From Limnohabitans sp. INBF002 (GTDB lineage Bacteria; Pseudomonadota; Gammaproteobacteria; Burkholderiales; Burkholderiaceae_C): DNA of 64,000 bases. Positions 32,275-49,466 of the stretch are shown here, piece by piece (positions within the stretch are counted from its first letter, which is position 1; every line of letters begins with the position of its first letter). Location: contig NZ_AP027055.1 in NCBI RefSeq assembly GCF_027924905.1, forward strand, positions 1,860,001 through 1,924,000, written 5' to 3'. The notes beneath the pieces were generated by a model. The model did no database searches and was not told where the DNA came from. It was given only the letters and a program-made list of their open reading frames with translations. Both the position numbers and the translations under genes were made by a program.

Positions 32275-33276
32275 CTATTTGTGGCTGAGGGCGTTGCTCA
32301 CCAACTTGGACGTGATATCCACAATTTGAATCATCCGGTCGTAGGCCATGCGCGTGGGGCCGATGACACCCAGCGTACCCACCACGAGGCCGTCTACCTC
32401 GTAGGGAGCGCTCACCACCGACAGCTCTTCCATAGGCACGATTTTGCTTTCGCCGCCGATGTAAATACGTACACCTTCGGCTTGAGCGGAGCTATCGAGC
32501 AAACGCACCAGCTGTGCTTTTTGTTCAAACAAATCAAAAGCGCGGCGCAGGTTGCCCATGTCGCTGGAAAAGTCACTCACCGACAGCAAATTACGTTCGC
32601 CACTGACCACCACATTGTCTTGCGCTTGGGTCAAGGCCTCGGTGCTTACCTGCACCGCCGCTTGCATCAAGGTGGCAATTTCGCCGCGCAGTGATTCCAC
32701 CTCGGCCAAGAGTTTTTCGCGCACCTGCTCAATCGCCATGCCCGCGAAATGGTGGTTCAAATAGTTAGATGCTTCCACCAGCTGCGAGGCCGAGTAGTCG
32801 GTTTCGGTGAACAGCACGCGGTTCTGCACATCACCCTCGGGCGACACGATGATGACCAACAAACGCCGGTCCGACAGACGCAAAAACTCAATGTGGCGAA
32901 ACACCGAGCTGCGGCGCGGCGCAATCACCACCCCCACAAAATGCGACAAATCAGACAACAGATGTGCGGCATTGGCGATCACTTTTTGCGGCTGATCTGG
33001 GGCCAACGTCGGGGTTTGCATGTGGCTGCGCTCAGCGGTGAGCATGGTGTCCACAAACAGGCGATAGCCCAGCGCCGTGGGAATGCGCCCTGCTGAGGTG
33101 TGGGGGCTGGCAATGAGGCCCAACTCCTCCAAATCCGACATCACATTGCGGATGGTCGCGGGCGACAACTCGATGCCCGTGGCGCGAGACAACGTGCGCG
33201 ATCCGACGGGTTGCCCGTCAGCGATGTAGCGCTCTACCAGCGCTTTGAGCAATAACTTGGCGCGATCGTCTAGCAT
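32275..33276 (-). CDS. hrcA: heat-inducible repressor HrcA
   Basis: This 333-residue repressor begins [20 protein letters not shown] and has the winged helix [20 protein letters not shown] plus [20 protein letters not shown], then the HrcA GAF-like body. It binds CIRCE inverted repeats and needs GroEL for activity. The second of two ATGs is chosen because AGGA lies 5 bases from it. It is divergent from nadK by 39 bases. A perfect CIRCE lies at 48483-48509 before rpoH; none is visible before hrcA itself. Confidence 0.96.
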
Positions 33277-33315
33277 GGTCATCCTGTTGTCGAATTTTAG
33301 TGATGTAATTTGCCT

Positions 33316-34212
33316 ATGAAATCGAAGTTTCGTCAGATTGCCTTGCTTGGGAAATACCACTTGAACTCAGGTTCAAGCGCTAACCCATCTTCCCGCAAAA
33401 CCCTAGAGGAAATTGCGCAGTTCTTGCACACGCTGGGCTGTGAAGTCATCCTAGAGCATGACACAGCAGCCGGCTCGGGCCTGAGTGGCTACACGGTGAT
33501 GGGCATCGAAGAAATTGGCACATCTTGCGACTTGGCCATTGTGCTGGGTGGCGACGGCACCATGCTGGGCTATGCCCGCCAACTGGCACCACACAACGTA
33601 CCGCTCATTGGTATCAACCAAGGTCGCTTGGGTTTCATCACTGACATTCCTTTGAATGAAGTCAAAAACACACTGACCGCCATGCTGGGCGGCGGCTATG
33701 AGGAAGACCGCCGCGCATTGATGCGCGCCAAGGTATGGCGCGATGGCCATTGCGTGTTCAATGCCCTGGCCCTGAACGACGTGGTGGTCAACCGTGGCGC
33801 CACCAGCGGCATGCTGGAAGTACGCGTCGCCATTGATGGCCGGTTTGTGGCGAACCAACGCGCTGACGGCGTCATCATTGCAACGCCCACAGGCTCTACC
33901 GCTTACTCTCTATCCGTCGGCGGCCCGCTGCTGCACCCGTCCTTGCCAGCCTGGGTCATGGCACCCATTGCGCCGCACACACTGTCCAACCGCCCCATCG
34001 TGCTGTCCGACACCGGCGAGGTGACGATTGACCTGGTGGCTGGCCGTGACGCCAGTGCCAACTTTGACATGCAGTCGCTGGCATCGCTGCTGATTGGCGA
34101 CCGCATCACAGTCAAACGCTCCAACTACCACGCCACCTTTTTACATCCACGCGGCTGGAGCTATTACGACACCTTGCGTCAAAAACTGCACTGGAACGAG
34201 GGTGTGGCATGA
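33316..34212 (+). CDS. nadK: NAD kinase
   Basis: This 298-residue enzyme phosphorylates NAD to NADP. It has the invariant [11 protein letters not shown] motif, [32 protein letters not shown] and [16 protein letters not shown]. The ATG is chosen over a TTG 6 bases upstream. It overlaps recN by 4 nt (ATGA), and nadK-recN-rapZ form a coupled run divergent from hrcA. Confidence 0.96.
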
Positions 34213-47086: not shown

Positions 47087-48151
47087 ATGTTTAGCTTCTT
47101 CAAGAAAAAAATCACTGGCCAGCCTGCTACCGAAGCAACGGGCAACAGCACAGCCACACCTGCGAACACCTCGGCTAGCGCCGTCCCATCTGAAGTCACA
47201 CCACAACAGATGCCAGCCGAGCGTCCCCGCGCGAGCTGGATGGCCCGCTTAGGCCAAGGCCTGCGCCGCACCGGCCAAACCATCAGCACCGTGTTCACGG
47301 GCACCAAGATTGATGACGCGCTCTATGAAGAACTCGAAACTGCCCTGCTCATGGCCGATGCAGGCGTGCAAGCCACCGAGTATTTGCTGGCCGATTTGAA
47401 GAAACGCGTCAAAGACACCAGCACCACCGAGCCCTCCGCCGTCAAGGCGCTCTTGGCCGCTTCAATTGCCCAGCTACTCAAGCCTTTAGAAAAGCCCCTC
47501 ACCATCGGCGCGCACAAGCCCACCATCATCATGGTGGCTGGCGTCAATGGCGCAGGCAAAACCACCTCGATTGGCAAACTCACCCGCCATTTGAGCGACA
47601 GCGGTGCCTCGGTGCTGCTGGCTGCAGCCGACACCTTCCGCGCCGCGGCACGTGAACAACTCGCCGTTTGGGCCACACGCAACACGGTGGAGATCGTCAG
47701 CCAAGAAGGCGGCGACCCGGCTTCTGTGAGCTTTGATGCCGTCACCGCAGGCCGCGCACGCGGCAAAGACGTGGTGCTGGTCGACACCGCAGGCCGCCTG
47801 CCCACGCAGCTGCACCTAATGGAAGAGCTGAAAAAAATCAAACGTGTGGTGCAAAAGGCCGAAGCAACTGGACCACACGAAGTGTTGCTGGTGATTGACG
47901 GCAACACCGGCCAAAACGCCCTCGCGCAAGTGAAGGCGTTTGACGAAACGCTGGGTTTGACCGGCCTCATCGTCACCAAACTCGACGGCACCGCCAAAGG
48001 TGGCGTGCTGGCCGCCATTGCGCTTTGGGGCCAAGGCCGTGTGGCAGCGGGTGGCTCGGCCGTGCCGGTGTATTTCATCGGCGTGGGCGAAGCCGTGGAA
48101 GACCTGGAAACCTTCAACGCCCAAGAGTTTGCCGACGCCCTCTTGGGCTAA
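47087..48151 (+). CDS. ftsY: signal recognition particle receptor FtsY
   Basis: This 354-residue GTPase docks the SRP-ribosome complex at the membrane. It has a short N-terminal A region, the four-helix N domain (LGQGLRRTGQTISTVFTGTK), the G1 loop GVNGAGKTTSIGKLTRHLSD, the VLVDTAGRLPTQLHLMEEL segment and TKLDGTAKGGVLAAIALWG. Length is shorter than in E. coli because the acidic A domain is reduced. Confidence 0.96.
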   Translation: MFSFFKKKITGQPATEATGNSTATPANTSASAVPSEVTPQQMPAERPRASWMARLGQGLRRTGQTISTVFTGTKIDDALYEELETALLMADAGVQATEYLLADLKKRVKDTSTTEPSAVKALLAASIAQLLKPLEKPLTIGAHKPTIIMVAGVNGAGKTTSIGKLTRHLSDSGASVLLAAADTFRAAAREQLAVWATRNTVEIVSQEGGDPASVSFDAVTAGRARGKDVVLVDTAGRLPTQLHLMEELKKIKRVVQKAEATGPHEVLLVIDGNTGQNALAQVKAFDETLGLTGLIVTKLDGTAKGGVLAAIALWGQGRVAAGGSAVPVYFIGVGEAVEDLETFNAQEFADALLG

Positions 48152-48156
48152 GCTAT

Positions 48157-48381
48157 TCAGGGCTTTAAAACGCCCTTCAGGCTATCGCGCCAGCGGCCAC
48201 AACGTTCATGCGCCTCCACCACGGGGTAACTGTCCATGCGGCCCTGCTTGCGCGTGAGCGGCGGCTGAATGTAGTAGCCCAAACCACAACGCAGCTGAGT
48301 TTCGGATGAGTCGGAATTCAGCACATGCGCGCAGCTCTTGCAGCACTGCATGGTAATTCGCTCCAAGGTCATGGGGGGCAT
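48157..48381 (-). CDS. small Cys-containing hypothetical protein
   Basis: This 74-residue protein has cysteines in QCCKSCAHV, RCGLGYY and RCGRWRD, a spacing that could hold a zinc or iron ion. AAGGAG lies 6 bases before the ATG, so translation should be efficient. I do not recognise a named family. It is convergent with ftsY (5-base gap) and divergent from rpoH, sharing the intergenic region that holds the CIRCE element. Confidence 0.72.
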   Translation of the reverse strand: MPPMTLERITMQCCKSCAHVLNSDSSETQLRCGLGYYIQPPLTRKQGRMDSYPVVEAHERCGRWRDSLKGVLKP

Positions 48382-48482
48382 AAAGGGCTCCTTAAATACT
48401 GTGATTATTTTCAGTATATGTTAAAAAACACAGTACTCAAAGCGAACCTTTACCAAGGGTTAACCCATAAACTTAGCAGGGT

Positions 48483-48512
48483 TTAGCACTCTTAATGCAG
48501 GAGTGCTAATAT
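48483..48512 (+). promoter_or_regulatory. CIRCE operator (HrcA site) overlapping the rpoH promoter
   Basis: TTAGCACTC (48483-48491), a 9-base spacer and GAGTGCTAA (48501-48509) exactly match the CIRCE consensus. A TAATAT -10-like hexamer (48507-48512) overlaps its right arm. The rpoH start is 34 bases downstream. HrcA, which binds CIRCE, is encoded at 32275-33276. Confidence 0.93.
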
Positions 48513-48542
48513 ACGTTTTAGTTATCCGAAAGGACTAATTCC

Positions 48543-49466
48543 ATGACTGCAATCACCCATCAGCCACTCGCTATGACCAACCCTTGGGGCTTGGTTCCGT
48601 CGCTGGGCAACTTGGATGCCTACATCACCGCTGCCAACCGTTTGCCTATGCTCACGCTAGAGCAAGAGCAGGAGTTTGCGCGTCAACTCAAAGACAACAA
48701 CGACATCGAAGCCGCTGGAAAGCTGGTGCTCTCGCACCTGCGTTTGGTGGTCTCGGTGTCGCGCCAATACTTGGGCTACGGTCTGCCACACGCCGACCTG
48801 ATTCAAGAAGGCAACATCGGCTTGATGAAAGCCGTCAAACGCTTTGACCCTGACCAAGGCGTGCGTTTGGTGAGCTACGCCATGCACTGGATCAAGGCCG
48901 AGATTCACGAATACATCTTGAAAAACTGGCGCATGGTCAAAGTGGCCACCACCAAAGCCCAGCGCAAACTGTTTTTCAACCTGCGCTCCATGAAACAAGG
49001 CTTCAAGGCTGACGCAGCCGATGCCACACACCGCAACACCCTCAACCCACAAGAGGTGAACGCGGTCGCGACCAAACTCAACGTCAAACCCGAAGAAGTG
49101 CTGGAGATGGAAATGCGCATGTCCGGCGGCGACGTGCTGCTTGACCCCACACCCAACGAAGACAGCGACGAAGCCTTTGGCCCCATCGCTTATTTGACTG
49201 ACACCAACCACGAGCCCACCGCCATGATGGCCGCGCACCAGCGCGATGTACTGGCGTCTGACGGCATTGCCGCAGCACTGAACGTGCTCGACGAGCGCAG
49301 CCGCCGCATCGTGGAAGAGCGCTGGCTCAAAGTGCAAGACAACGGCTCGGGCGGCATGACGCTGCACGACTTGGCCGCTGAATACGGCGTGAGCGCTGAG
49401 CGCATCCGCCAAATCGAAGTCGCTGCCATGAAGAAAATGAAAGCGGCGCTGGCTGAATACGCGTAA
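48543..49466 (+). CDS. rpoH: RNA polymerase heat-shock sigma factor (sigma-32)
   Basis: This 307-residue sigma factor shows region 2 (LVLSHLRLVVSVSRQYLGYG, LIQEGNIGLMKAVKRFDPDQ), the RpoH box QRKLFFNLR at 140-148 that distinguishes RpoH from other sigmas, and region 4 (LHDLAAEYGVSAERIRQIEV). It directs transcription of chaperone and protease genes. The CIRCE in its promoter predicts repression by HrcA when GroEL is free. It is convergent with SCO1 and is followed by a terminator. Confidence 0.97.
   Translation: MTAITHQPLAMTNPWGLVPSLGNLDAYITAANRLPMLTLEQEQEFARQLKDNNDIEAAGKLVLSHLRLVVSVSRQYLGYGLPHADLIQEGNIGLMKAVKRFDPDQGVRLVSYAMHWIKAEIHEYILKNWRMVKVATTKAQRKLFFNLRSMKQGFKADAADATHRNTLNPQEVNAVATKLNVKPEEVLEMEMRMSGGDVLLDPTPNEDSDEAFGPIAYLTDTNHEPTAMMAAHQRDVLASDGIAAALNVLDERSRRIVEERWLKVQDNGSGGMTLHDLAAEYGVSAERIRQIEVAAMKKMKAALAEYA

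Follow-up and report, generated by a model that had tools for sequence, protein, structure and literature searches.

The 64-kb stretch of DNA analysed here, referred to as the window, carries the sigma-32 gene rpoH (Table 1), whose product contains the Pfam sigma-70 regions 2 and 4 and matches the profile TIGR02392 with 394.7 bits, above the cut-off. An ftsY-like gene lies upstream of rpoH, which can be compared with the order ftsY-ftsE-ftsX-rpoH of E. coli, and a small divergent gene for a Cys protein is the neighbour of rpoH. Between the latter and rpoH we found TTAGCACTC-N9-GAGTGCTAA, a 9-9-9 inverted repeat with no mismatch to the CIRCE consensus, which ends 33 bp before the rpoH start codon. 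It is the single CIRCE match with up to three mismatches in the window, and 100 dinucleotide shuffles of the window gave none at this threshold; the whole 2.59-Mb genome holds two such elements, one at groESL and one at rpoH. The original prediction had claimed a perfect CIRCE at this position, an HrcA gene in the same window and an overlap of the element with a -10-like hexamer, and all of this was recovered. The hrcA gene was recognised by a profile match of 308 bits, above the cut-off, on the minus strand (G000:C1:1892290-1893270, window 32290-33270). The hexamer TAATAT at 48507-48512 overlaps the right arm of CIRCE and is directly preceded by TGC, so that this arm supplies most of an extended -10. 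The -35-like TTAGCA given in Table 1 was not listed by the promoter scan.

Table 1. Features of the window that are discussed in the text
Feature	Position	Strand	Basis and remarks
CIRCE, predicted HrcA operator (perfect 9-9-9)	48483..48509	none	Consensus match, conservation, loss with hrcA
rpoH, sigma-32, 307 aa	48543..49466	+	Pfam and TIGR02392 profiles
Ribosome-binding site AAGGA of rpoH	48530..48534	+	By eye
Extended -10 TGC-TAATAT, presumed rpoH sigma-70 promoter	48504..48512	+	Sequence; overlaps CIRCE right arm
Weak -35-like TTAGCA, 18 bp before TAATAT	48483..48488	+	By eye, inferred; formed by CIRCE left arm
Possible sigma-E promoter relic TAAACTT-N15-TCTTA	48468..48494	+	Score 9, not above chance
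Palindrome GGGTTAACCC, starts 26 bp 5' of CIRCE	48457..48466	none	Exact-copy search; also in relatives
Small divergent Cys protein gene, neighbour of rpoH	48157..48381	-	ORF; current data place it outside the circuit
Upstream gene, read as ftsY	47087..48151	+	Sequence, named by eye
hrcA, heat-inducible repressor	32275..33282	-	Profile match; start codon inferred; mechanical ORF 32275-33360

Conservation of CIRCE at rpoH and its joint loss with hrcA

A check for the element in close relatives had been set beforehand, and its outcome agreed with the prediction. Among 30 loci examined in the window's own genus (15 rpoH, 14 groES and one without a match), CIRCE was present at all 15 rpoH loci recovered, with 0-1 mismatches. 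In a named set of 80 RpoH relatives, mostly Comamonadaceae and neighbouring Burkholderiales, it was found with 0-2 mismatches in 79 of 79 testable cases; L043, with 12 nt upstream, was left out of the counts, and L001 and L002 are the genome's own. The order set drew on 109 genomes of 39 families of Burkholderiales in the GTDB sense and, with G046 contributing two, comprised 110 rpoH upstream regions, hand-chosen from about 150 listed matches for family spread; CIRCE with up to three mismatches was detected in 100 of these regions. A class set of 60 gammaproteobacterial genomes outside Burkholderiales, one per family, had the element at this threshold in 52 families. Throughout the alignments both arms are near invariant, while the loop and the flanks vary. 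A phylum-wide distribution was considered and rejected: CIRCE was found in none of 20 regions from other, non-gamma Pseudomonadota, all of which had six mismatches at best. CIRCE at rpoH thus seems, from these alignments, to be the common state of those gamma- and beta-proteobacteria that keep HrcA. The proposal of a circuit unlike that of E. coli stands as far as E. coli itself is concerned, which has neither an hrcA match nor CIRCE at rpoH, but the circuit is not specific to this lineage, given the 52 of 60 other gammaproteobacterial families.

The trinucleotide NAT directly follows CIRCE at rpoH in 77 of 80 named, 86 of 100 order and 36 of 52 class rows, and together with the TGCTAA of the arm it forms TGC-TAANAT, an extended -10. 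No NAT was seen next to CIRCE at the 14 groES loci of the window's genus. Because NAT is kept and completes an extended -10 with the arm of CIRCE, HrcA bound to the element would cover the -10 of rpoH.

Within the order, the presence of the operator follows that of the repressor gene. We sought hrcA by profile in 79 of the 109 order genomes and in the window's genome (G000). All 70 order genomes with hrcA have the site at rpoH with 0-4 mismatches (four in G133, which carries hrcA), and all nine without hrcA (G052, G112, G176, G180, G043, G087, G124, G157 and G160) lack CIRCE there, their best sites having at least six mismatches. These nine genomes carry five family labels (f4, f24, f31, f44 and f50), and Fisher's test gave 4.9e-12, with kinship ignored; the counts across genomes are not independent, because the genomes are related. 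PMC3135505 gives HrcA counts of 1, 1, 0 and 0 over four species, two of them Neisseria, and a relationship of the small-genome family f44 to these is possible. The association is less tight among gammaproteobacteria outside the order: CIRCE at rpoH was found in 50 of 53 genomes with an hrcA match (the exceptions are G335, G304 and G270), and two of seven genomes without such a match, both of them drafts, keep a CIRCE-like site (G307 with three mismatches, G347 with one; Fisher 2.0e-4, kinship ignored). In E. coli, whose genome served as a control, the profile search did not detect hrcA.

With the site kept in close relatives and the operator lost together with the repressor gene, control of rpoH by HrcA, as originally predicted, is the best reading of the locus. 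We consider it very probable that CIRCE functions as an HrcA operator and overlies the rpoH promoter, providing GroEL/HrcA feedback on rpoH and groESL. HrcA might also bind CIRCE and yet control rpoH to a minor extent, with translation and proteolysis as the chief determinants of sigma-32 and CIRCE trimming basal transcription. In E. coli, sigma-32 is controlled chiefly post-transcriptionally by these two means, and sequence alone cannot give the strength of HrcA control. However, the near-perfect conservation of CIRCE across families argues for real selection, and the first 123 nt of rpoH leader and coding RNA (48518-48640) fold no better than shuffles (z 0.24, a single fold and as such weak evidence), so that a merely auxiliary role of HrcA is conceivable but rather unlikely. 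The same fold lends no support to an RNA thermometer in the rpoH leader.

Putative sigma-E-type promoters interlocked with CIRCE in relatives

A second conserved signal was first seen in the upstream regions of relatives as GGAACTT 5' of CIRCE and TCnnA in its loop. The sigma-E consensus is GGAACTT-N15-17-TCnnA, and by a fixed rule a match to it near CIRCE had to score at least 10 of 12. Scoring was applied to regions having CIRCE with up to three mismatches, that is 80 named rows including the window, 100 of the 110 order regions and 52 of the 60 class regions. Matches were obtained in 46 of 80 named, 61 of 100 order and 42 of 52 class rows, and controls in which CIRCE was kept and the flanks were shuffled gave 2.3, 2.6 and 1.2%, respectively. 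In most families the sigma-E -35 begins 16 or 17 bp before CIRCE and the last two letters of the left arm, TC, are also the first of the -10; Comamonadaceae have the -35 in register -12 and the -10 within the loop, a few families have the -10 at the 5' edge of CIRCE, and Roseateles- and Rubrivivax-like relatives have it downstream of the element. The -10 lies inside CIRCE in 38 of 80 named, 50 of 100 order and 37 of 52 class rows. The two rpoH genes of G046 (L165 and L166) have CIRCE with one and two mismatches, and each also has a sigma-E-type promoter. At four loci of Roseateles- and Rubrivivax-like relatives (L061, L066, L073 and L076) such a promoter is found 33-34 bp after the start of CIRCE, so near the start codon of rpoH that the leader may be very short or translation may begin further downstream.

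The combination is specific to rpoH. When CIRCEs were collected from 46 of the 53 hrcA-bearing class genomes, 30 sites were returned, and a sigma-E match was found at 12 of the 14 rpoH sites versus none of the 16 other sites of the same genomes. It also goes with RpoE. The search for RpoE covered the window's genome, those behind 50 of the 80 named loci and 80 others, three of which were unscored as they have no CIRCE; E 1e-60 or better was taken as presence, so that G247 and G348, slightly below the curated cut-off, are treated as carriers. Among the named genomes, a promoter match was present in 31 of 39 that have RpoE and in none of 12 without it, the window's genome included (Fisher 7.9e-7, kinship ignored); the corresponding figures for the order and class sets are 52 of 72 and none of five (Fisher 0.0027, kinship ignored). 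A simple rule linking RpoE and promoter is at odds with the RpoE-bearing genomes that have no match, eight named and 20 from order and class; several of these reach a score of 9 in the same register.

The match inside CIRCE could in principle simply follow from the fixed TC at the end of the left arm, with no promoter behind it. The -10 consensus is short, its TC in the common register does come from CIRCE, and 20 of the 72 scored RpoE-bearing order and class genomes have no match at the threshold. Against this stand the shuffled-flank controls (1.2 to 2.6% versus 58 to 81% observed), the contrast with the other CIRCEs of the same genomes and the 17 genomes without RpoE (12 and five) that all lack a match. 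Moreover, E. coli rpoH has TGAACTT-N16-TCTGA, the promoter type found interlocked with CIRCE in the relatives, and the accessible part of PMC2956729 describes an rpoHP3 fusion of E. coli as a sigma-E reporter. Taken together, these points make this explanation quite improbable.

It appears reasonably probable, on comparative grounds, that HrcA operator and sigma-E promoter at rpoH form one interlocked element, ancestral in gamma- and beta-proteobacteria, at which HrcA would have to leave CIRCE before a sigma-E or sigma-70 start. Lineages without hrcA would have kept a bare sigma-E promoter, as in P3 of E. coli, and lineages without rpoE, such as that of the window, a bare operator. In the window's genome RpoE was not found (best profile match 25.8 bits versus a cut-off of 236.15), and the site in the window has no sigma-E match at the threshold of 10, its best score being 9. 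This best-scoring stretch, TAAACTT-N15-TCTTA, is near the register of other families and may be a relic of a lost sigma-E promoter.

Predicted circuit, its alternatives and known systems

HrcA depends on GroEL, which keeps it active. In unstressed cells, HrcA made active through free GroEL would occupy CIRCE and hide the -10, and rpoH transcription would be low. Unfolded protein would then occupy GroEL and leave HrcA inactive, whereby rpoH and groESL would be released jointly; sigma-32 would lift the wider heat-shock set including groESL, and the extra GroEL would restore HrcA and close the loop. In most relatives the operator also holds the sigma-E -10, and HrcA should therefore gate the induction of rpoH by envelope stress, whereas in the window's lineage the sigma-E promoter would have been lost with RpoE, leaving a sigma-70 promoter under HrcA control. 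We infer the binding, the direction of control, the GroEL dependence and the start sites of the HrcA/rpoH circuit. A search for sigma-32 sites in the window (consensus, up to three mismatches) gave six matches versus 5.64 expected and was uninformative.

That the palindrome acts in RNA instead, as a leader hairpin which attenuates or terminates read-through from ftsY or makes the mRNA more stable, with HrcA binding of secondary importance or missing, is very improbable. In Bacillus, a function of CIRCE at the mRNA level has been considered, and our scan lists CIRCE with the following TATACGTTTT as terminator-like (0.1 expected), but the loss of CIRCE tracks hrcA exactly in the 79 order genomes and the tract after CIRCE is not T-rich in many relatives. 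Furthermore, the arms hold one DNA sequence across families and do not covary, which fits protein binding. It is scarcely credible that the divergent Cys gene, alone or along with rpoH, is the target of CIRCE: the 161-bp intergenic region is common to both genes and contains a minus-strand sigma-70-like match at 48440-48413, but CIRCE lies 43 bp outside this match, at a distance of about 100 bp from the start of the Cys gene, and it stays with rpoH, whereas the Cys gene is absent from the 80 named loci.

Heat regulation had been suggested for the Cys gene as well, and this suggestion gained no support. Its product has no Pfam match, the 80 named rpoH loci contain no relative, and the genome has four members of the small paralogous family concerned (48157-48381 and three more); on these grounds its membership in the HrcA/rpoH circuit was rejected. 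The protein is Cys-rich and carries the motifs CCKSC and RCG. A search of 40 other genomes gave relatives in 11, every one of which belongs to the same genus. The gene adjoins rpoH in G424 too.

Returning to HrcA control of rpoH, operator and repressor are the same as at groESL in this genome and genus. The groES CIRCE differs in that it follows a sigma-32-like CTTGAAA...CCCTTAT and has no NAT after it, whereas the rpoH CIRCE overlaps an extended -10. Permina and Gelfand 2003 is said, going by its title, to treat the HrcA and sigma-32 regulons of beta-, gamma- and epsilon-proteobacteria, and may well list rpoH CIRCE sites. It is cited for the profiles in the accessible part of PMC545781, where a perfect TTAGCACTC-N9-GAGTGCTAA is reported upstream of rpoH at position -51 in Geobacter sulfurreducens, with HrcA control predicted (Table 8 of that paper). 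Since CIRCE at rpoH is thus in print for Geobacter, the basic HrcA/rpoH circuit is already known, and the window resembles that species in having a perfect CIRCE upstream of rpoH. G. sulfurreducens is, however, a deltaproteobacterium whose hrcA-grpE-dnaKJ also has CIRCE, unlike the window's genome with groESL and rpoH only; its rpoH site is a prediction, and an overlap with sigma-E is not discussed in the accessible part of PMC545781. The HrcA/sigma-E overlap at rpoH, its specificity for rpoH and the reciprocal losses were not found among the open-licence papers searched, and the new part would be the sigma-E interlock, a feature of relatives that the window does not show.

E. coli, the textbook case of heat-shock control, is without HrcA, and its rpoH differs from that of the window in having no CIRCE; inspection by eye of its upstream region revealed no leftover worth claiming at the expected register. 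Should HrcA gate rpoH in most of its relatives, control mainly through translation and proteolysis as in E. coli would be a derived state, and sigma-32 outside E. coli should answer first to GroEL supply, via transcription. If the interlock is real, a single element of about 45 bp would let rpoH respond to both cytoplasmic folding (GroEL/HrcA) and envelope folding (sigma-E), and a full rise of rpoH under envelope stress would be expected only with HrcA off. Comamonadaceae, some of which have RpoE and some of which do not, lend themselves to such a comparison.

The palindrome GGGTTAACCC 5' of CIRCE is the sole exact copy within the window (0.01 expected). Similar palindromes were seen by eye in about nine of the 15 rpoH loci of the genus, and the GGGWWWWCCC type occurs 19-39 bp 5' of CIRCE in six of 79 named relatives (L009, L026, L030, L031, L048 and L059); all four carriers checked are without RpoE, and none of the 39 named RpoE-bearing genomes has it. 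It is possibly the site of another regulator, and a further copy of GGGTTAACCC was noticed by eye in the same genome (L001 2929-2938, G000:C1 near 292150), just 5' of a small gene that appears to encode a membrane protein.
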